Of a stretch of 21,221 bases of DNA, positions 5,911 to 19,973 are shown one piece after another; position 1 is the first letter of the stretch; the number at the start of each line of letters is the position of its first letter. This stretch comes from a virus. A program made the translations under genes and the position numbers. The notes beneath the pieces are model-generated. The model made no database searches, was not told the origin of the DNA, and saw only the letters and a list, made by a program, of their open reading frames with translations. Where the stretch lies: the IMG/VR virus record IMGVR_UViG_3300032278_000141, positions 1-21,221 of that record. One strand, given 5' to 3'.

Positions 5911-6791
5911 TGAACAGGAATCCTTTCACCCTCGCCTTCGATTGAATAAGCTCGAATTTTTCCATCTTTTATAAGTTGCCAGACATCATCATTTCCGACA
6001 AAGACATCTAAAATCCAAGTTCCTTTTTTGATAATTTCACCGTCGCCATAAAAGTCAACATCATTCTTCAAGACAACAGACTCAATAGGAACAACACCAT
6101 CCGTAAAATCATCATAATTTGACGAATGCAAAATATTGATTTGTTGAAAATCTTTCATAAACCCATGAGCGGCTTTTACAATTTCATCAGCTTCTATTAA
6201 GTCATTTTGCAAATCAACAGAATTGGGAATAAGAACAGGACCGCTAATAATTCTTTCATCTTCACTCACGCTCTTAATAACAGCGGTTAATTCTGTCGTA
6301 TGTTTATTTGATTCATCGCTTTTTCTCATACGTCTTCTCTTCCGCCTTTCGTCTATTTTCCCTTTTGCCTCATTAACAACACGTTTCATTCCACTAACGC
6401 CCGATGCATTAATAGTTCCCCACTTAATATTTGCAATTGCACCGTTTAATCCTACGCTATTGTAATGTCGAGTCGCAAAACGTTCTCTTTTCTTTATCCA
6501 CGTCAAAACACCTAATGTTCGCTTCCCATCCCGATATCGTCCCCATACACGAAACGAATCATCTCCCGTAAAGGATGTAGGTGGATTGCCCCCAGTACCA
6601 GCACGTTTCCACAATTCTGGATAATTCTTTTTTAAATCAATTGCATAAGCATAACTAAATTGCTTAAATTGACTATTTAAAAGAGACACCTTTTTATTAC
6701 GACCTTTTTTGGGAAAATCTGTCATTGCCTTCTTACGGGATGAAGCCTTCTTTTTGGGTTTCTTTCTGGGCTTATTATAATGGTGAGGCAT
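5907..6791 (-). CDS. XkdF-type prohead serine protease with basic N-terminal domain
   Basis: A 294-residue protein. Residues ~165-294 match the XkdF-like prohead protease pattern (Peptidase_S78_2): ERIISGPVLIPNSVDLQND, H222 in ILHSS, GTWILDVFVGNDDVWQLI and a candidate catalytic Ser283 in RAYSIEG. Residues ~58-145 (YPELWKRAG ... VLTWIKKRERFATRHY ... IKWGTIN) resemble a separate module that I believe recurs in phage head-cassette proteins. The first 35 residues are extremely Lys/Arg-rich. It should mature the capsid and scaffold during assembly. The start at 6791 has no visible SD and lies only about 9 nt from the predicted transcription start of the 6807-6836 promoter. An internal ATG at codon 23 is an alternative. 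Confidence 0.85.
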   Translation of the reverse strand: MPHHYNKPRKKPKKKASSRKKAMTDFPKKGRNKKVSLLNSQFKQFSYAYAIDLKKNYPELWKRAGTGGNPPTSFTGDDSFRVWGRYRDGKRTLGVLTWIKKRERFATRHYNSVGLNGAIANIKWGTINASGVSGMKRVVNEAKGKIDERRKRRRMRKSDESNKHTTELTAVIKSVSEDERIISGPVLIPNSVDLQNDLIEADEIVKAAHGFMKDFQQINILHSSNYDDFTDGVVPIESVVLKNDVDFYGDGEIIKKGTWILDVFVGNDDVWQLIKDGKIRAYSIEGEGERIPVQ

Positions 6792-11881: not shown

Positions 11882-12079
11882 TTAAAAAATCAAAAACTTT
11901 TTCTTTTTCTTTATTTCCGGTCTTCCACTTTTAGTCCATCTATCTCTAGCCATTTTCAACTCACGTTCTGTGAATAAGAAATTGACTTCACCCAATAGTT
12001 TGTTTGTGTCTTTATCACCTGATAACAGGTAATAACTCGACAATTGACCAAATGTATGGCTGTTATTTTCATACCTCAT
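11882..12079 (-). CDS. Small hypothetical protein
   Basis: A 65-residue protein with no recognised domain (MRYENNSHTFGQLSSYYLL ... ERELKMARDRWTKSG). The tail is a run of lysines followed by a short hydrophobic end. I place the start at the ATG at 12079 rather than the upstream GTG at 12094. It forms an ATGA overlap with the stop of the DpdA-like gene and has a GGGAG SD 8-9 nt upstream. The helical ERELKMARDRW segment and basic tail could bind nucleic acid, but this is only an impression. It is coupled between the DpdA-like gene and the endolysin. Confidence 0.7.
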   Translation of the reverse strand: MRYENNSHTFGQLSSYYLLSGDKDTNKLLGEVNFLFTERELKMARDRWTKSGRPEIKKKKKFLIF

Positions 12080-12984
12080 AATACTTTCTCCCACTCGAAT
12101 AAGTCAAGTTGATCGTTATTTCTTGAAAATTTATACCCCTTCTCTGGAACAATAAAAGAATTGATTTCTTTATTAATATAATCCCCATATCTTAAAAACT
12201 CGGCTGCAAACTGAAAATTTACTTGTTCAAAAGTTCTGCTTTTTGTTCGACAATACGGTGATTTGTGAAGTGCTACATTTAAAGAAGATACACTAGAATC
12301 AGAAGAAGAAACCCCTACTGAATGATTCATTTGAAGTTGTTGTAAATTGCCAATACCAAAGCTATGAATTCCATATTCTTTGGGAACTAACTTTCTAATA
12401 AATTCCACAAACTCAAACTTACTCTGTAATATTGTTTCTCTGTTCCCCATATTACTATCATTACCTATACTAATCCCGCCCAATCCAAACATATAACGTT
12501 CAGAATTCAATTCGAAAGCATTTAATTCTCTATCATATAAACTCACACAATATTCATACTCCATCAAATCACAGCCCTGGATAGGCAACACTTTAATCGC
12601 ATTCGTTTCATAATCTAATAGTTTCCCTGCATTTTCTATTGTCTTTTCTATTGCCTGTATAGATGTCATGTTTGCAAGTTTTAACAACTCACTTGTTCTT
12701 CCGCCAGAACTGCTAATGGGAAAATCAATAGCTGCAATATAGTCTGGATCAATTTCATCAGCTAGATCAAACAAATATTGATTGTTATCTAACCATTCAA
12801 TCTCCCCTTTCATTCCCGCAGAAAAAAACCCAGAATCTAGAAATAGTCTTCTAGATAAATTCAAGAACTCTTTTACATGTTTAAATCTAGATACTCGATA
12901 AGCAGAAACTAAAACATCAATCTGATCGGGAACAAATTGCAAAAACTTAGATGAATCAGGCATACACTGAAAATACTTAAACAC
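12076..12984 (-). CDS. DpdA/TGT-like transglycosylase, probable 7-deazaguanine DNA modification enzyme
   Basis: A 302-residue protein with the motif order of the tRNA-guanine transglycosylase TIM barrel and its DpdA branch. These are LFLDSGFFSA (~48-56), a likely substrate-site Asp in YIAAIDFPI (D87), VLPIQG (132-137), YMFGLGGIS (164-172), IHSFGIGN (206-213) and VGVSSSDSSVSS (223-234), the last holding the candidate nucleophile D229. No full Cys4/His zinc site as in bacterial Tgt is evident, which argues against a tRNA enzyme. DpdA enzymes exchange guanine in DNA for a 7-deazaguanine. Together with phage queE (18244-18927) this suggests modified virion DNA. The start is GTG with SD AAAGG 8 nt upstream; the ATG at codon 8 lacks an SD. 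A divergent TGT-like enzyme with another substrate remains possible. Confidence 0.72.
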   Translation of the reverse strand: MFKYFQCMPDSSKFLQFVPDQIDVLVSAYRVSRFKHVKEFLNLSRRLFLDSGFFSAGMKGEIEWLDNNQYLFDLADEIDPDYIAAIDFPISSSGGRTSELLKLANMTSIQAIEKTIENAGKLLDYETNAIKVLPIQGCDLMEYEYCVSLYDRELNAFELNSERYMFGLGGISIGNDSNMGNRETILQSKFEFVEFIRKLVPKEYGIHSFGIGNLQQLQMNHSVGVSSSDSSVSSLNVALHKSPYCRTKSRTFEQVNFQFAAEFLRYGDYINKEINSFIVPEKGYKFSRNNDQLDLFEWEKVL

Positions 12985-13033
12985 AAATAATACCTTTCAT
13001 TAGCCTTTGAAATTTCATTTCCTCTCTTAAAAT

Positions 13034-13067: not shown

Positions 13068-13071
13068 CCGC

Positions 13072-13522: not shown

Positions 13523-13538
13523 AGCGATATATTATTTG

Positions 13539-13724
13539 CTATAAAATTTCCTTGTTAATATTAACAACCTCAGAAGATTGTTTTTTCCCAATATAACGCC
13601 CCGCCCCACGACTAACATTCTTCGAATTAGTTCGAATCCTTCTCTTTTTCTTCTCTTTTTCCCTTTTCTCTCTTTCTAATGCCTCCAACCTAACAGTCAT
13701 TGCCGCTACTATTCTAGCTATCAT
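13539..13724 (-). CDS. Small very basic hypothetical protein
   Basis: A 61-residue protein with a short hydrophobic start (MIARIVAAM) followed by a charged helix almost entirely of Arg, Lys and Glu (LEALEREKREKEKKKRRIR) and a basic tail. ATG with SD AGGGG about 9 nt upstream. It lies 16 bases before the next gene in the operon, so it is probably expressed. It may bind nucleic acid or another protein through a coiled coil; no family is recognised. Confidence 0.55.
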   Translation of the reverse strand: MIARIVAAMTVRLEALEREKREKEKKKRRIRTNSKNVSRGAGRYIGKKQSSEVVNINKEIL

Positions 13725-13745
13725 TATTATAAACCCCTATTAATT

Positions 13746-14057
13746 CTACAAAACATCACCATGTCGTCCTGGCGCTTTCGAACTAGAACGACTTCTTATA
13801 GTTCGACCAGTTTGCCTTTCCGTAAATCTTTCCAACATCGCTAAAACCTGTTCCATCATCCACGCTTCAGATGGTAACTTATCTATTTTTTCGTCCCACG
13901 TCATATCTGTAATCGGATTTAGTTTATATTTCTTTTCTATCTCTTTTCTGGCTTCCGAAATAACTTGAAATAATTTCTTCGACAATCCAATATCCTCTGA
14001 ATCTAATTGAATATGTTCCACTAAATTTCTTAAACTTGACGCTTGATCTTCTTTCAA
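13746..14057 (-). CDS. Hypothetical protein coupled to the histidine kinase gene
   Basis: A 103-residue, mostly helical protein (LRNLVEHIQLD, LSKKLFQVISEARKEIEKKY, AWMMEQVLAMLERFTER) with a basic tail (GRTIRSRSSSKAPGRHG). It starts at a TTG that overlaps the kinase stop as TTGA, without a good SD, so translation would be by re-initiation after the kinase. No domain is recognised. The coupling suggests it may work with the kinase, for example as a partner or output protein, but the sequence gives no direct sign of this. Confidence 0.6.
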   Translation of the reverse strand: MKEDQASSLRNLVEHIQLDSEDIGLSKKLFQVISEARKEIEKKYKLNPITDMTWDEKIDKLPSEAWMMEQVLAMLERFTERQTGRTIRSRSSSKAPGRHGDVL

Positions 14058-15430
14058 TTTGTAACAGCGTCTATTTCAGATTGAATCTCAGATAATCTAA
14101 ACGGTTTACCCAGAAATCCATTCATTCCAGATTTGAGACAATCTTCTTTTACATCCCCAACAAGACTTGCCGTCAATGCCACAATTCTAATATTCTTATT
14201 AAATTCTCTAATTAATCTAGTTGTTTCAAAACCATCTATTTCCGGCATCTGCAAATCCATAAATATTATATCATATCCATTATTCTTTTCTTTTTCTATT
14301 GCGATTTGTCCATTTTCTGCCAGTTCTACTTTAACTTCTAGTTTTTCTAAATATCGTTTAGCAACTTGTCTGTTAATTTCATCATCATCTACAACTAAAG
14401 CCGTCAAAAACTCTTTTCTTTCATAAGGCAACAATTCTAAATCGAACTCAAAAGTACTTCCTATACCAAACTTACTATTAATTCTTATTTCTCCACCCAT
14501 TCCCTCAACAAATTTTTTGCAAATTGACAAGCCCAAACCCGTTCCACCATTTTTTCGATTGTTTTTGTCATCTATTTGAGAGAACTCTTCAAAAATGTAA
14601 TCTTTTTTCGAATCAATAATGCCTATCCCAGTATCGATAACTTGAAAAAGAACATTATTACTAGAATTATCGAAAATAAGATTCAGATTAACTGTTCCTT
14701 TTTCAGTGAACTTTATAGCATTGCTAATTAAATTAATCAAAACCTGATTAATTTTCTGTTCATCGCCTATTCTCTGTTGATTAATGCTATCAAAATTATC
14801 ATTTAGAGGATTGAAAACTAAAAACAATCCTTTAGCTGTTGCTAAAGGATTCATTCTATTAATCGTTTCATGACACAAATCAATCAGTTTGAAAGGCTGA
14901 TTTTGATATTCAATCTCAAAAGAATCGTTCTTAGAGCAATCTAATAATTCGTTAACTATAGATAACAATCTATCTGATGATAATATAGCCCTGTCAATAT
15001 CCTCGTTTGTTTCTATATCCAATTTGTTTCTGTTAATCAATCCCAAACTACCCACAATTCCGTTTATGGGTGTTCTAATCTCATGCGACATTCTAGACAA
15101 GAAATCTGTTTTAGCTTGATTGGCATCTTCTGCTACTACTTGTGCATCTTCTGCTACTACTTGTGCTTTCTCTGCTTCAATCAGATTATTCAGAGCCTCT
15201 TTCAATTCAACTTTAACAGAATCCAATTGATTAGAGACAGATTTACCCACATTGTCGGCGACCATATCAATCATCTTCTGTCGCCCTGCCTGTAGATACT
15301 TCTTGTTCTCAGCAGAAATAGCCCGCTGCACAGACAGCAAGGATCGACGGTTGAAATACCCAATACCAGAAATCAGTATCGCCACCAAAATCACCTCATC
15401 AATTAGTAACTGCCACCAAGTTATTATCAT
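14054..15430 (-). CDS. Membrane-anchored hybrid sensor histidine kinase with C-terminal receiver domain
   Basis: A 458-residue protein. A single TM helix (~5-26, LLIDEVILVAILISGIGYF) is followed by a coiled coil (~27-107) and HisKA with FLSRMSHEIRTP (phospho-acceptor H116). The HATPase_c domain has N-box LINLISNAIKFT (N237), G1 DTGIGI (266-271), F-box IFEEFSQID and G2 GGTGLGLSICK (295-305). The REC domain (~343-455) has the acidic pocket VVDDD (348-350), phospho-acceptor D392 in IIFMDLQMP, T420 and K442. All catalytic residues are present, so it should be active. There is no PAS, GAF or periplasmic sensing domain. A 21-nt tandem duplication gives VVAED twice in the linker just before HisKA. 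It is 3 bases from the radical SAM gene. A phage-borne complete hybrid kinase is unusual; it may rewire host phosphorelay signalling (inference). Confidence 0.93.
   Translation of the reverse strand: MIITWWQLLIDEVILVAILISGIGYFNRRSLLSVQRAISAENKKYLQAGRQKMIDMVADNVGKSVSNQLDSVKVELKEALNNLIEAEKAQVVAEDAQVVAEDANQAKTDFLSRMSHEIRTPINGIVGSLGLINRNKLDIETNEDIDRAILSSDRLLSIVNELLDCSKNDSFEIEYQNQPFKLIDLCHETINRMNPLATAKGLFLVFNPLNDNFDSINQQRIGDEQKINQVLINLISNAIKFTEKGTVNLNLIFDNSSNNVLFQVIDTGIGIIDSKKDYIFEEFSQIDDKNNRKNGGTGLGLSICKKFVEGMGGEIRINSKFGIGSTFEFDLELLPYERKEFLTALVVDDDEINRQVAKRYLEKLEVKVELAENGQIAIEKEKNNGYDIIFMDLQMPEIDGFETTRLIREFNKNIRIVALTASLVGDVKEDCLKSGMNGFLGKPFRLSEIQSEIDAVTN
15123..15164 (-). repeat. Perfect 21-nt tandem duplication in histidine kinase linker
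   Basis: 15123-15143 is repeated exactly at 15144-15164. It encodes a seven-residue unit read as AQVVAED twice in the coiled-coil just before HisKA (residues ~89-102). Seven residues equal one coiled-coil heptad, so the frame and helix register are kept. Confidence 0.9.
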
Positions 15431-15433
15431 ATT

Positions 15434-17386
15434 TCAACCCATCATAAATTGATCTAACTGTTCTGGGTGACATTTATAGTTACCTTGCGCTCTGCCAATC
15501 CATGCTGCTTGATGACACCACATTTTCAACGTCGATTCTTGAATTTTATTCTTATAACTATAAGAAATATTACCTTTTATCAACTCAGAATCATCGTTTG
15601 AAACGAATTCTTTCCAATGATAAGAAAAATCATCTTCTTTTATTTCTTCATTTCTATCTCTAGTCATCAACAAAAATACTTGAAACTTAACAAGATCAAA
15701 AATCACTTCATATTCCGTGTTAAAGTTTTTAGAAAACTCTAAGAACAAAACAAATTTACGAATATCATTAGATAAGTCAACAGATTTTAACACACATCTC
15801 AACCATGTCGCCTCTTCAATGGGCCAAAATATATCTGAAAGTGTTTCATCATGATGATTCCACCCTCCTCCAGAGTATCCTGTCTCAATATAATCTTTAA
15901 CAGTCAAATACTCTGTGTTAAAAATAGTGTCGCCATTTTTGCAAAACTCTATGAATATCTCATAAAAATCAATATATTCTAACTTATATTTCTGATAATA
16001 GAATTTAGATATGTATTCAAGGATTCCCAAACTGTGAAACGCTTGTATCGCCCATCCATAAACAAACATCTGTTTCAAGTCTTCAGTGCTGCAAGTATTA
16101 GTACTAACTACTATATCTTCATATTCTTGAATATCACCTCTTGTCTCTACAGACGAATGCCACAAATAAATGGGAGATCGAATTGTTTTTATCTCGTATT
16201 TAGCCTTATATTTAGTCTCATTCATGGGCGCATTGACAAAAACACCACAATTATAAATAAAAACAACGGGTCGAGGAAACAAACCCATCATTTGATTAAG
16301 ACTATTTTTATAACTATCAATAGTCTCGCCTGGCATTCCCATTATTATTTCAGTATAATTTTCGAGACCCTGTCTTCTGAACTGTTTAACAAGCTGACTA
16401 TATTTATTAAATTTGATATTTTTTCTTTTAATGGCAATTAGTGTTGTGTCATCAAGAGACTGAACAGCAAGAGTTACTGCTCGTAACAAATCTGCATCTA
16501 TTAACTCTTTTGCTAAAGGTATAATCTTATCGGATGATACTTTTGCCCATGCGGGTCTAATTCTGCCTGGATAGCCCTTTTCTAGCTTCTCTTCTTTCAA
16601 TTTTCTAGTTAATTCAAAATCACGTTCAGCAAATATACCGAAGTTAGCATCGCAACAATCTATATATGATATTTTGTTATCTGCAAACCACTCAATCTCC
16701 TCGAAAAGTTTGTTTATATCCCATTTTCTCACTTTCGTTTTTGTCGCACTGCCCCAATCACAAAAAGTACATTCGAAAGGGCAGCCCCTATTTGTTTCCC
16801 ACGCAACTATGTAGTCTACGTCATCAACATCTTCGACTAAATCCCAAATCAAATTTGTCAGATAAGGTGAAGGTATACTGTCTAAATCATCAATTCTAGT
16901 TTGGGGCATTGTTCTTAACCCCCTCATCTCTAAACCGTTTATACTTGAATAATCATTGTAAGACAGATAGTTCTTATGCGACATATAGACTTCAAAAATC
17001 TGTTTTAAGGTCTTTTCCCCTTCTTGATGAACAAGAATATCAACATGAGGATAATCAGCAAAGAAATCACCTTCATAGTTAAGAGGAACCTCAGGCCCAC
17101 CATATATAACCGTGCAATCAGGATATTTGTCTTTCACTCTCTCAGCTAAAACATTTGTTATTTCCCAGTTCCAGACATAACAAGAACAAACTAACAAATC
17201 AGGATCTTCAACACGTTCAATATATTCATCTAGCTTATCTCTAAATATAAATGTTTTTTGATAATCAAACTTATCTTTGAGATTAGAAAACGAATTTATA
17301 TATGAAAACAAAGATGCAATGCTATAGGGTACATGAATAGACGATGCATACTTATAATTAAATTGTGAACTGTAGACTTTAATCAT
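15434..17386 (-). CDS. B12-binding-type radical SAM enzyme
   Basis: About 650 residues. The N-terminal ~1-135 form a Rossmann-like cobalamin-binding-type domain (LLVCSCYVWNWEITNVLA, VIYGGPEVP, HVDILVHQEGEKTLKQI) without the DxHxxG motif, as in several B12 radical SAM enzymes. The radical SAM core begins at ETNRGCPFECTFCDWGS. Its cluster cysteines are C202, C206 and C209 (CxxxCxxC), followed by YIDCCDANFG, RAVTLAVQSLDD and MGMPGET. The C-terminal ~250 residues are unassigned and aromatic-rich. Such enzymes perform radical methylations or rearrangements; the substrate is unknown. I start at the ATG at 17386 because GAGG lies 6 nt upstream; an ATG at 17392 is in frame two codons earlier. It is coupled to the histidine kinase and a two-TM gene. 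Confidence 0.9.
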   Translation of the reverse strand: MIKVYSSQFNYKYASSIHVPYSIASLFSYINSFSNLKDKFDYQKTFIFRDKLDEYIERVEDPDLLVCSCYVWNWEITNVLAERVKDKYPDCTVIYGGPEVPLNYEGDFFADYPHVDILVHQEGEKTLKQIFEVYMSHKNYLSYNDYSSINGLEMRGLRTMPQTRIDDLDSIPSPYLTNLIWDLVEDVDDVDYIVAWETNRGCPFECTFCDWGSATKTKVRKWDINKLFEEIEWFADNKISYIDCCDANFGIFAERDFELTRKLKEEKLEKGYPGRIRPAWAKVSSDKIIPLAKELIDADLLRAVTLAVQSLDDTTLIAIKRKNIKFNKYSQLVKQFRRQGLENYTEIIMGMPGETIDSYKNSLNQMMGLFPRPVVFIYNCGVFVNAPMNETKYKAKYEIKTIRSPIYLWHSSVETRGDIQEYEDIVVSTNTCSTEDLKQMFVYGWAIQAFHSLGILEYISKFYYQKYKLEYIDFYEIFIEFCKNGDTIFNTEYLTVKDYIETGYSGGGWNHHDETLSDIFWPIEEATWLRCVLKSVDLSNDIRKFVLFLEFSKNFNTEYEVIFDLVKFQVFLLMTRDRNEEIKEDDFSYHWKEFVSNDDSELIKGNISYSYKNKIQESTLKMWCHQAAWIGRAQGNYKCHPEQLDQFMMG

Positions 17387-17414
17387 CGTCATCCTCAGAT
17401 TTCACACGTTGCAT

Positions 17415-17846
17415 TCAGCCGTTACCATCACTGCCTCTTTGATCGTATAAGGCAACAACCGCAGATGAGAGTATACCCAGCATAACTAGTAATAATCTCT
17501 CAAAAAAAGCGAGTTCTTTTTCGATGCCCACAGTTCCCTTGGGTGACCACCAAGAAACCACACTCATCATCACCATACAGCCCACTAATATTAATACTCC
17601 AATGAAAACTAGCCTGACTACACTTATCTGACCCTGTGTCTTCATCAAAAACGTATTGTTTTTCTCACTAGAAGCTAAATTTTTAGCTAAATCAGTGACT
17701 TGTTCTTCAAGAATTAATATAACTTCGTGATCTGTCTTTCCTTGATAAACGGGATTAGCCGAGTGATTCGAATCGTTAATATTGTTTTCTTCCATTTCAT
17801 CATCATCATCTGTCACTATCGTAACGAAATGAAAGAAAAATGTCAA
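17415..17846 (-). CDS. Two-TM membrane protein of unknown function
   Basis: Up to 143 residues. The N-terminal ~80 residues are acidic with a short coiled coil (VILILEEQVTDLAKNLASSE). Two predicted membrane helices follow: VRLVFIGVLILVGCMVMMSV and ERLLLVMLGILSSAVVALY, with a short polar tail. A TTG start at 17846 overlaps the AP2 stop as TTGA and has AAGGA 12 nt upstream; an ATG at 17795 gives a 126-residue form with no SD. The layout resembles the holin-like protein at 13139-13522 (polar arm, helix, two TMs, hydrophilic tail), so it may be a second holin-like protein. Alternatively it may be a membrane partner of the kinase or the radical SAM enzyme. Confidence 0.65.
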   Translation of the reverse strand: MTFFFHFVTIVTDDDDEMEENNINDSNHSANPVYQGKTDHEVILILEEQVTDLAKNLASSEKNNTFLMKTQGQISVVRLVFIGVLILVGCMVMMSVVSWWSPKGTVGIEKELAFFERLLLVMLGILSSAVVALYDQRGSDGNG

Positions 17847-18244
17847 CCGAAATTTAATTCCTTAACATTATCTAAATTCATGTTTTTAACACCATTGTCA
17901 TATGCAACTGCTGCCCTATAATCTGTCTCAAATGTGCCTAGATGATGTTTTTTCCCCTTATGTATAAAAGATGCTTGCCACTTATTTTTTCGTCCCGCTC
18001 TATACGCCTGAGTATGCAAATTAACGCCTATAAACTTTGATTTGGGATAAGATCCATTACTCGATACAGATTTCGATATAGATTTAGACAAAGGTTTCGA
18101 CGCAGATTTAGAAACCGTATCTTTATAATCGTAAACCCCAACTAAAATTCGAGTCTTATTATCGTCAAAATCATAACACAAATACTCATCATCTCTACGT
18201 ATCCACAAAAGATTTAAATCCCTAATAACACTTTCTTTTTCCAT
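17843..18244 (-). CDS. AP2-domain DNA-binding protein
   Basis: A 133-residue protein with a C-terminal AP2/ERF-type domain (~70-132): SKFIGVNLHTQAYRAGR, KWQASFIHKGKKHHLGTF and TDYRAAVAYDNGVKN, ending ELNFG. These match the 'Y.GV ... W.A.I ... LG.F.T...AA.AYD ... NF' signature. A Ser/Lys-rich linker (SKSASKPLSKSISKSVSS, ~45-62) joins it to an N-terminal ~40 residues with possible beta strands. In phages AP2 domains usually sit in HNH homing endonucleases; here no HNH motif is present, so it may be a free-standing DNA binder or a decayed endonuclease. ATG overlaps the queE stop by one base (TAATG). Confidence 0.85.
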   Translation of the reverse strand: MEKESVIRDLNLLWIRRDDEYLCYDFDDNKTRILVGVYDYKDTVSKSASKPLSKSISKSVSSNGSYPKSKFIGVNLHTQAYRAGRKNKWQASFIHKGKKHHLGTFETDYRAAVAYDNGVKNMNLDNVKELNFG

Positions 18245-18927
18245 TAAATTCCTCTCTTATTTCCCCAAATATCAATATGCAATCGTGTTGAATATCTGTA
18301 TCCCCACTCTTTACACAAATCAATCACCCATTCCTGTTTATTCTGTAACTCTTCTTGATTTTTAGCTTGGGGCATTAAATATATTTTATCGCCCTTAACA
18401 CCTAAGAATCGTTGAAGATATAAAACTTCTGTAAAATCTTGTGGATACTCAATAACAAACTTTAACTGAAAATCAGTTTCATTAATCATTTTTTTCAGTA
18501 CATTCAATTGAAGTCTGTTTTTTTCTTGTAGATGTCTTTCCTTTGTTGAAATGGGAATTGAATTACTTAATTTGGGACTTATCGAAAGCAAATCAATCTC
18601 TAACGAACAAAAAATAATTCCCGCTGTTTCTATTGTTATATGATATTTTTTTTCTTTAAGAATTTGACACAATTTTATTAATTGTTGTTTCTGTAAATAG
18701 GGTTCTCCCCCTGTAATTACAATGTATTTCGTTTTGTATTGATCAATTTTATCTATCAAATTCGATAAATCGATATAGTTTTCTTCCGCTTCCCATGATG
18801 TATAAGGGGTATCACACCACAAACATCTCAAGGGACAGCCACTAAATCTAACAAATGTACTGGGAACCCCAATAAGCTGCCCTTCACCTTGAATAGAATA
18901 AAATATTTCGCTTAAATTAACCTTCAT
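18244..18927 (-). CDS. queE: 7-carboxy-7-deazaguanine synthase
   Basis: A 227-residue radical SAM protein with the QueE signature. It has EIFYSIQGEG near the N-terminus, FVRFSGCPLRCLWCDT with cluster cysteines C31, C35 and C38, ITGGEPYL (71-78), TIETAG, 'ISPKLSNS' and a C-terminal TRLHIDIWGN. It converts 6-carboxy-tetrahydropterin to CDG, the committed step to preQ0, queuosine and phage deazaguanine DNA bases. Other pathway genes (folE, queD, queC) are not in this window; they may lie elsewhere or come from the host. The ATG at 18927 abuts the U-tract of a terminator hairpin and has no upstream SD. The conserved N-terminus rules out a later start. First gene of the accessory operon. Confidence 0.95.
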   Translation of the reverse strand: MKVNLSEIFYSIQGEGQLIGVPSTFVRFSGCPLRCLWCDTPYTSWEAEENYIDLSNLIDKIDQYKTKYIVITGGEPYLQKQQLIKLCQILKEKKYHITIETAGIIFCSLEIDLLSISPKLSNSIPISTKERHLQEKNRLQLNVLKKMINETDFQLKFVIEYPQDFTEVLYLQRFLGVKGDKIYLMPQAKNQEELQNKQEWVIDLCKEWGYRYSTRLHIDIWGNKRGI

Positions 18928-18973
18928 AAAAAAAGGGCCTGAACGGGAAAAGCTATTAACCCGTTTAGACCCT
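18928..18973 (-). terminator. Terminator/attenuator directly before queE start codon
   Basis: On the minus strand, arms 18973-18960 and 18947-18934 pair over 14 positions: 12 Watson-Crick pairs, one G-U and one A-C mismatch. The loop is 12 nt, followed by seven T at 18934-18928, whose first T also closes the stem base. The next base is the A of the queE ATG at 18927. The plus strand lacks a T-run, so it works leftward. Confidence 0.8.
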
Positions 18974-19062
18974 CGCTTTCTGTATTTTAGTTGATTACTT
19001 TATACAAGACTCCGACTACAAAATCTATTTTTAAAGTTAATCATGTGTCGTTTAACACGACA
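18928..19062 (-). ncRNA. queE leader RNA or stand-alone ~135-nt RNA ending in attenuator-like terminator
   Basis: This is the 300-base gene-free stretch between the genes at 19228 and 18927, minus-strand half. The transcript from the 19069-19098 promoter would begin near 19062, carry a 5' hairpin (19046-19062), run through an unassigned ~70-nt segment and reach a terminator whose U-tract touches the queE ATG. I compared it by eye with preQ1 riboswitch consensus features and found no convincing match. It may be a new deazaguanine-responsive leader, an antitermination-controlled leader, or simply a small RNA with queE expressed by read-through. Confidence 0.5.
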
Positions 19063-19068
19063 AGTTCA

Positions 19069-19098
19069 ATTATAGCACGTATTTGCAGTCATTTTCAA
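19069..19098 (-). promoter_or_regulatory. Minus-strand promoter for the queE operon leader
   Basis: On the minus strand, -35 TTGAAA (19098-19093) and -10 TATAAT (19074-19069) are separated by 18 bp. A TG one base before the -10 makes it an extended -10. The predicted start is near 19062, where a 5-bp inverted repeat TGTCG/CGACA (19046-19062) could form a 5' hairpin or an operator. It is back to back with the plus-strand small-RNA promoter. Confidence 0.7.
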
Positions 19099-19106
19099 TC
19101 CTATAA

Positions 19107-19135
19107 TTGACTTTTTTATGTTATTCTGATATAAT
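19107..19135 (+). promoter_or_regulatory. Sigma70-type promoter for plus-strand small RNA
   Basis: -35 TTGACT at 19107-19112 and -10 TATAAT at 19130-19135, with exactly 17 bp between. This is the best sigma70 match I noticed in the window. It points right and is followed within ~85 bases by a terminator, with no ORF between. The -35 is 8 bp from the -35 of a divergent minus-strand promoter (19069-19098). Confidence 0.75.
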
Positions 19136-19141
19136 AGAATT

Positions 19142-19225
19142 GTTGTTATCGCAACAGACGAATTGCCTGCTCAATACACAAAGCGACTTAGTGTCCCCCA
19201 CCTTTGATACTAAGTCGTTTTTTTT
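19142..19225 (+). ncRNA. Candidate phage small RNA (~84 nt)
   Basis: A promoter at 19107-19135 and a strong intrinsic terminator at 19184-19225 bracket a transcript too short and ORF-poor to be an mRNA. The 5' end can fold into a small hairpin (TGTTG at 19141-19145 with CAACA at 19152-19156). A single-stranded middle follows, then the terminator stem, whose 16-nt loop holds CCCCCACCTTT. That C-rich, anti-SD-like loop resembles seed regions of small RNAs that pair with ribosome-binding sites. It is complementary to the GGGGGA SD of the gene starting at 19749. It is antisense to the spacer between that gene and queE. Transcription is inferred. Confidence 0.6.
19184..19225 (+). terminator. Intrinsic terminator of the small RNA
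   Basis: A perfect 9-bp stem CGACTTAGT (19184-19192) / ACTAAGTCG (19209-19217), a 16-nt loop, then eight T (19218-19225) on the plus strand. On the minus strand the tract after the stem is only CTTTGTG, so it would terminate leftward transcription from the 19228 gene poorly. Confidence 0.85.
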
Positions 19226-19227
19226 GT

Positions 19228-19749
19228 CTAAAATCTTTTTTTCGAGTTGGGAATTGTAATCAAGATCATTCGACTACCTTTCTCCATGTTCTCTAACTCA
19301 ACATCATCAAATCTAAGCTTCTCTTGTCCCGATTCGGGGATTAACTTGTATTGTGAGTAGTCATCCTGAATCAATCTCAATTCATCTTTCGCTTGAATTG
19401 TATTATCACTACGCATATTGACAATTGGCATTTCCTTATCCCTTTTCTTGTCAAAACGACCCACCTGAATTCCCAATATCCCTTGATCACTATTAAAGTA
19501 AATAGCCGAATTCTCCCATTTCTTTAACTTTAAATCCCCTCGCAATCTCGTATTGAAACTTATAACGCCATATTCATCAATCATTACAACTTTTGCTGTG
19601 CCATCTTTCGACTTAATCGCATCAAATCCCATCTCTTTTAATTTGTGATTCATTGTTGTCATTCCCCCATACTGACGAATTACGTCGTCTATTATCTGCT
19701 GAATTTTTCGATGATTGATTATATTTTGAAATTGTTTCGATGTCAACAT
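19228..19749 (-). CDS. Hypothetical protein, possible SpoVT/AbrB-like segment
   Basis: About 173 residues. I do not firmly recognise it. Residues ~50-95 (VVMIDEYGVISFNTRLRGDLKLKKWENSA then IYFNSDQGILGIQV) follow the 'isFN..a...L....+..v.l.y#.e...igi' rhythm seen in AbrB-like swapped-hairpin proteins. The first 45 residues are helical and basic. The start is placed at the ATG at 19749, 9 nt after a strong GAGGGGG SD; a GTG at 19767 in the same frame would have no SD. The gene begins inside the zinc-ribbon gene, overlapping it by 128 nt. Its stop lies next to the terminator of the plus-strand RNA at 19142-19225. Confidence 0.68.
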   Translation of the reverse strand: MLTSKQFQNIINHRKIQQIIDDVIRQYGGMTTMNHKLKEMGFDAIKSKDGTAKVVMIDEYGVISFNTRLRGDLKLKKWENSAIYFNSDQGILGIQVGRFDKKRDKEMPIVNMRSDNTIQAKDELRLIQDDYSQYKLIPESGQEKLRFDDVELENMEKGSRMILITIPNSKKRF

Positions 19750-19867
19750 CACAAAAATCCCCCTCACAACACGTTATACAAACCTGATGACATCTACTAC
19801 ACTGATAATGCCCGTGAACAAAGACGAGACTCAAGTTCGCACCACAAAAATCGCATCTCTTTTTCAT
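19622..19867 (-). CDS. Small Cys-rich zinc-ribbon protein
   Basis: An 81-residue protein whose first ~42 residues are a clear metal-binding motif: CDFCGANLSLVFVHGHYQCSRC then HQVCITCC and GDFCD, with paired Cys and His ligands. This resembles a small family of 'HGHxQC..C' zinc ribbons seen in bacteria and phages (my recollection). The last ~39 residues (SKYNQSSKNSADNRRRNSS) are low-complexity and are the part read in another frame by the downstream gene, so their content may be dictated by that overlap. ATG at 19867 with a weak AAGAGA SD. It may bind nucleic acid or protein; specific function unknown. Confidence 0.7.
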   Translation of the reverse strand: MKKRCDFCGANLSLVFVHGHYQCSRCHQVCITCCEGDFCDVDIETISKYNQSSKNSADNRRRNSSVWGNDNNESQIKRDGI

Positions 19868-19895
19868 AGACTTTTTTCTCTTCTTATGCTATCAT
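19867..19895 (+). promoter_or_regulatory. Possible plus-strand promoter for a second small RNA, with operator-like inverted repeat
   Basis: -35 TAGACT (19867-19872), 17-bp spacer, -10 TATCAT (19890-19895) preceded by TGC (extended -10). A 7-bp inverted repeat ATGCTAT/ATAGCAT (19886-19904, 5-bp centre) covers the -10 and could be a repressor site. It points away from the zinc-ribbon gene and towards the terminator at 19921-19973. Confidence 0.45.
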
Positions 19896-19901
19896 ATATA
19901 G

Positions 19902-19973
19902 CATCAAACTTAACTTCCGCGCTGAATGATGTTCTTCTCCAACCTGTCTGGAAGAATGTCATTCAGCTTTTTT
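19902..19973 (+). ncRNA. Candidate second phage small RNA (~72 nt)
   Basis: This short stretch lies between a promoter-like sequence (19867-19895) and a long terminator hairpin (19921-19973). No ORF is present. It is antisense to the spacer between the genes at 19976-20350 and 19622-19867. Most of the RNA would be the hairpin, with a ~19-nt unpaired 5' end. The unit repeats the layout of the candidate RNA at 19142-19225. Confidence 0.45.
19921..19973 (+). terminator. Long intrinsic terminator on plus strand
   Basis: A 17-bp stem between 19921-19937 and 19951-19967 (15 Watson-Crick pairs and two G-U), 13-nt loop, six T at 19968-19973. The minus strand side is GC-rich without a T-run, so it does not look like a leftward terminator for the gene ending at 19976. 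Confidence 0.82.

Follow-up and report, generated by a model that had tools for sequence, protein, structure and literature searches.

A strong terminator that ends at the base before a start codon raises the question of how the gene behind it is expressed and, where that gene is queE, whether the RNA in front of it senses a 7-deazaguanine. This arrangement occurs in the viral record IMGVR_UViG_3300032278_000141, whose 21,221 bases were analysed as a whole and are referred to here as the window.

The queE locus and its surroundings

The window encodes a terminase, a portal, a capsid protein and a muramidase, with nearly all of its genes on the minus strand; the tRNA search detected none, and queC and queD are absent from the fragment. 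Close kin are scarce: relatives of the terminase were found on just two short contigs (62–71% identity), comparison of the terminase with the genome collection found no relative, and both contigs that share the terminase are without the queE region, so that no relative carries the leader region.

As for queE (18244–18927, minus strand), profile matches assign its product to the 7-carboxy-7-deazaguanine synthase-like radical SAM proteins; it matches PHROG 2076 with an E-value of 1.4e-57 and TIGR04349 with 5.8e-35, the latter below the cut-off of the model, and the several QueE models that match all do so below their cut-offs. The protein has 45–51% identity to its best cellular counterparts versus ∼36%, over its length, to the best viral one, and a quick tree placed it, with weak support (87/52), beside a sequence from a Planctomycetota MAG; it is of the cellular rather than the phage type, and hence probably acquired. 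In the phages examined, queE has no leader; it adjoins queD or is found close to other genes of the queuosine pathway.

Behind queE, genes are packed along 13523–18243 (minus strand), with intergenic gaps of −4 to 22 nt up to position 13746, and they would share the queE transcript; their families include AP2-like, two-TM, B12-radical SAM and hybrid histidine kinase proteins, among others, the TM and AP2 assignments having been made by reading the sequence. Between 14054 and 17392 (minus strand), this phage carries a B12-dependent radical SAM protein, 63–64% identical to proteins of two other viral contigs, and a complete hybrid histidine kinase that includes a receiver domain.

Directly upstream of the leader promoter lies a gene of no assigned function (19228–19767, minus strand), which had no usable family match and no relatives in the searches. 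A perfect 12/12 promoter, TTGACA-N17-TATAAT, is located at 19746–19718 (minus strand), inside the listed start of this ORF, and the true start of the gene may be further downstream.

The window also holds a TGT-superfamily-like gene, possibly DpdA-like (12076–12984, minus strand), whose product matched the Pfam TGT family at an E-value of 0.013, below cut-off, and had no close relatives in the searches. A role of queE in DNA modification may reasonably be inferred, although the weakness of the TGT match makes this a suggestion and not a result. The start of the TGT-like gene is overlapped by the stop of a short ORF, MKFQRLMKGIICV, that has a good Shine-Dalgarno (SD) sequence (12977–13018, minus strand); this could reflect either translational coupling or a one-base frameshift that hides the true start of that gene.

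Promoter, leader RNA and terminator

The extended −10 promoter claimed in the earlier note was recovered at 19098–19069 (minus strand) as TTGAAA-N18-TATAAT with the TGC extension; it agrees with the sigma70-type consensus at 11 of 12 positions and has a zero-mismatch TGNTATAAT. The predicted transcription start, at about 19062, coincides with the first base of hairpin 1, and the leader of about 135 nt that had been proposed from there to 18928 is correct in both sequence and coordinates. The 135-nt RNA folds with −42.7 kcal/mol, compared with −23.2 ± 3.3 kcal/mol in dinucleotide shuffles (z −5.97, 0 of 200).

By folding, the RNA has at its predicted 5′ end the hairpin that the note had announced (hairpin 1, TGTCGTGTTAAACGACA, 19062–19046, minus strand). 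The middle region that should follow is present, but it is not loose: it consists mostly of a second hairpin of 52 nt with an interrupted stem (hairpin 2, 19043–18992), and then of a 17-nt, mostly unpaired linker (18991–18975). These first 72 nt by themselves reach −20.7 kcal/mol, with a z of −3.8 to −4.4 against shuffles, and rank 12th among the 1764 tiles of 72 nt in the window, a comparable z being found in ∼0.7% of the tiles; the 5′ domain is thus unusual, yet less exceptional than the terminator. The leader contains no boxA.

The intrinsic terminator (18974–18928, minus strand) has an interrupted stem of 14 bp followed by U7, and its strength and position agree with what had been described: it reaches −21.7 kcal/mol by itself (z −4.3), its T7 runs from 18934 to 18928, and the seventh U adjoins the queE AUG, which begins at 18927. 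Terminators of −15 kcal/mol or better number three in the window, against 0.05 expected per dinucleotide-shuffled window. No SD precedes queE, again as noted earlier; the sole purine triplet is an AGG at −13 to −11, within the 3′ arm of the terminator, and this type of start is not unique in the window, as the start at 6791 is likewise without an SD. Taken together, the promoter, the hairpins, the terminator and its abutment on the AUG are confirmed as a real sequence feature.

Because the terminator abuts the AUG, no promoter fits between it and queE. Of the earlier proposal that queE needs read-through or antitermination, the first part holds, since polymerases that start at this promoter or further upstream have to pass the terminator to reach queE, while antitermination itself would be one way of doing so. 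In a read-through mRNA, the hairpin would end 7 nt from the AUG and would also hamper translation, which would probably keep queE expression low as long as the hairpin stays closed.

When the 3′ arm of the terminator was barred from pairing, in pseudoknot-free folding, hairpins 1 and 2 were unchanged and just a weak local hairpin formed. In this folding model, the leader has no mutually exclusive antiterminator and terminator folds, and no switch is visible.

Other promoter-terminator units of the window

Each of the four strongest terminators of the window (−16.7 to −23.2 kcal/mol) closely follows an extended −10 promoter that lies on the same strand. With a cut-off of −14.5 kcal/mol or better, promoters are paired with four of five terminators, a number that random placement reaches with p ∼1e-5 (permutation). 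The resulting units span 19062–18928 (minus strand), 19142–19225 (plus), 19902–19973 (plus) and ∼13065–13035 (minus).

The first plus-strand unit starts from a divergent promoter, TTGACT-N17-TATAAT with an extended −10 (19107–19135, 11/12), that stands back to back with the leader promoter at 19069–19098 (minus), their −35 hexamers being 8 bp apart; it is followed by a predicted small RNA of ∼84 nt with its own terminator (19142–19225, fold z −5.4). The second (19867–19973) has its promoter at 19867–19895, 77% like that at 19107 over 31 nt, and a predicted RNA at ∼19902–19973 (fold z −5.8). Neither has a sense gene ahead, and both look like free-standing small RNAs. The terminator loops of the two RNAs are C-rich (CCCCCACCUUUG in 19142–19225; CUCCAACCUG in 19902–19973) and resemble an anti-SD. 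Within the second plus-strand promoter, the −10 is overlapped by a palindrome, TGCTAT-N5-ATAGCA (19887–19903), which looks like an operator.

The second minus-strand unit (13101–13035, fold z −4.7) joins an extended promoter, TTGAAA-N18-TATACT, to a terminator hairpin, and the TGT-like gene is the first gene after it. Both minus-strand units head consecutive operons, that of queE and that of the TGT-like gene, which continues with lysin, terminase, portal and capsid; however, since the hairpin of the second unit starts right at the predicted transcription start of that unit, it may instead end the upstream operon. The search of Rfam with the units other than the leader found nothing.

A proposed terminator gate before the queE operon

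Tentatively, and with something short of even confidence, the most probable reading takes the 135-nt segment for a 5′ leader that belongs to the queE operon, in which the promoter-proximal terminator would serve as a gate following the logic of lambda tR′ and tL1; such gating would be a usual form of phage regulation, although the phage itself is uncharacterised. Host RNA polymerase would start at ∼19062 and mostly halt at 18928, freeing a short stable RNA, and the queE operon would be read once the polymerase had become resistant to the terminator, as at tR′ or tL1. Resistance could come from a phage or host factor, or from the two-hairpin 5′ domain if it acted like the put element of HK022.

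In lambda, pR′-tR′, with its 6S RNA, and pL-tL1 have promoter-proximal terminators under antitermination (Q and N, with qut and nut). More generally, the early genes of lambdoid phages mostly lie behind terminators and require a terminator-resistant polymerase (PMC9378689). The locus has the lambda-type layout, that is, a promoter and then an intrinsic terminator at the head of an operon, and it shares with tR′ and tL1 a strong host-type promoter, a short leader RNA, an intrinsic terminator and a phage operon behind it. Further, the gene of no assigned function at the leader (19228–19767) stands where Q stands in lambda, and by this analogy it would occupy the place of a Q-like antiterminator. 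There are differences, too: the terminator of this phage abuts the first start codon, and neither a protein like Q or N nor a qut or nut site was recognised in the window.

Gating is favoured because all four of the strongest terminators follow extended −10 promoters, far above chance, because both minus-strand units are at operon heads, and because the terminator and the AUG leave no room for a promoter between them. As the leader has no antiterminator fold, an agent that is external or bound to the polymerase is favoured over a switch worked by a ligand. Conversely, gating is weakened by the two plus-strand units, which have no gene to gate, and by the second minus-strand terminator, which may simply close the upstream operon; it is also weakened by the lack of boxA, of put likeness and of a recognisable antiterminator gene, the family search of the upstream genes having recognised none in a record that is a fragment.

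HK022 put antiterminates RNA polymerase via the β′ zinc-binding domain. The 5′ domain of the leader resembles it in size and position, with about 72 nt, two stem-loops, placement directly at the promoter and upstream of the terminator (PMC9378689), whereas it differs in being AT-rich and in its hairpin 1, which is much less elaborate than stem I of put. The put elements, unannotated in the HK022 record, were located by their mutual similarity, and local alignment of the 5′ domain with putL and putR gave no likeness, shuffles being as good in 42–54% of cases.

Competing explanations

The main rival fits nearly as well, although on balance we consider it less likely than gating: the RNA would be a free-standing phage sRNA acting in trans, with queE merely adjoining its terminator and expressed by leaky read-through. 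The 5′-terminal hairpin, the 3′ terminator and the own promoter are the anatomy of stable, phage-encoded small RNAs, and the two nearby plus-strand units have the same anatomy with no gene ahead; the probable acquisition of a cellular-type queE and the lack of this leader at other queE genes also fit. Unlike such RNAs, the leader runs straight into an ORF, and a packed operon would be left without its own promoter; in addition, the leader paired with the two plus-strand RNAs no better than shuffles did, and Rfam matched it to no known sRNA family.

It is improbable that the terminator closes the unit of the upstream gene (19228–19767) and that the site resembling a promoter plays no part. Operons do have terminators at their ends, and this is a plausible role for the hairpin at 13068 with respect to the operon upstream of it, but the terminator before queE lies ∼255 nt beyond the stop of the gene with an 11/12 promoter in between, queE would have no promoter, and the pairing of promoters with terminators exceeds chance by far.

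More doubtful still is the reading from which the question arose, a riboswitch in which a 7-deazaguanine or another ligand would choose between termination and read-through. Like the preQ1 riboswitches of classes I–III, the leader precedes a deazaguanine gene and combines a structured 5′ domain (z about −4) with a strong terminator, and the TGT-like gene is also behind a promoter-terminator unit; class III is known from queT leaders (PMC11625349). The impression by eye that the leader is unlike all three classes was upheld by the Rfam search, which, with all families, gave no hit at the gathering score and none credible at E-values up to 10. It further differs from them in having no overlap between an aptamer and the terminator, no competing antiterminator fold was found, and the hairpin of the second minus-strand unit, at its own start site, leaves no room for an aptamer.

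Relatives of the leader were not found either: no homologue came from a single-sequence covariance model run over ∼1 Mb of queE loci, from an exact-pattern search or from blastn against phages and plasmids, and a terminator scan of 160 other queE upstream regions gave four distant terminators and none abutting the start. Two candidates were rejected: a covariance hit at 18894–18982 (plus strand, E 0.0019) is the terminator hairpin read on its opposite strand and not an independent site, and a 58-nt match of 80% (E 3e-4) to a gene for an HNH protein in Klebsiella jumbo phages is taken to be due to chance in AT-rich DNA, its protein support covering just 13 residues. This absence argues clearly against a leader widespread among queE genes but weakly against a lineage-specific RNA, given the single-sequence model and the lack of near relatives. 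Finally, the two plus-strand units have the same promoter-terminator layout with no deazaguanine gene, so queE is unnecessary to explain it, and the proposal of deazaguanine sensing was not borne out.

No more credible would be a coupled arrangement, in which queE and the TGT-like gene, both behind terminator leaders, respond to a shared cue, either an intermediate of the pathway or a dedicated phage factor, that times DNA base modification. The least probable reading of all is leader-peptide attenuation, in which ribosomes translating the 14-codon ORF present inside hairpin 2 (19044–19000, MINFKNRFCSRSLV) would stall and shift the hairpins, as this ORF has no SD and no run of regulatory codons, is of a size expected by chance, and is accompanied by no alternative antiterminator pairing.

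Significance of the proposed gate

In conclusion, a terminator gate before the queE operon, the preferred reading, would by itself reveal no new ligand-sensing RNA. The four promoter-terminator units are compact targets for finding an antiterminator or small RNAs. A real gate would show by what means an uncultured phage family, nearly without relatives, controls a queE of cellular type together with the genes that follow.
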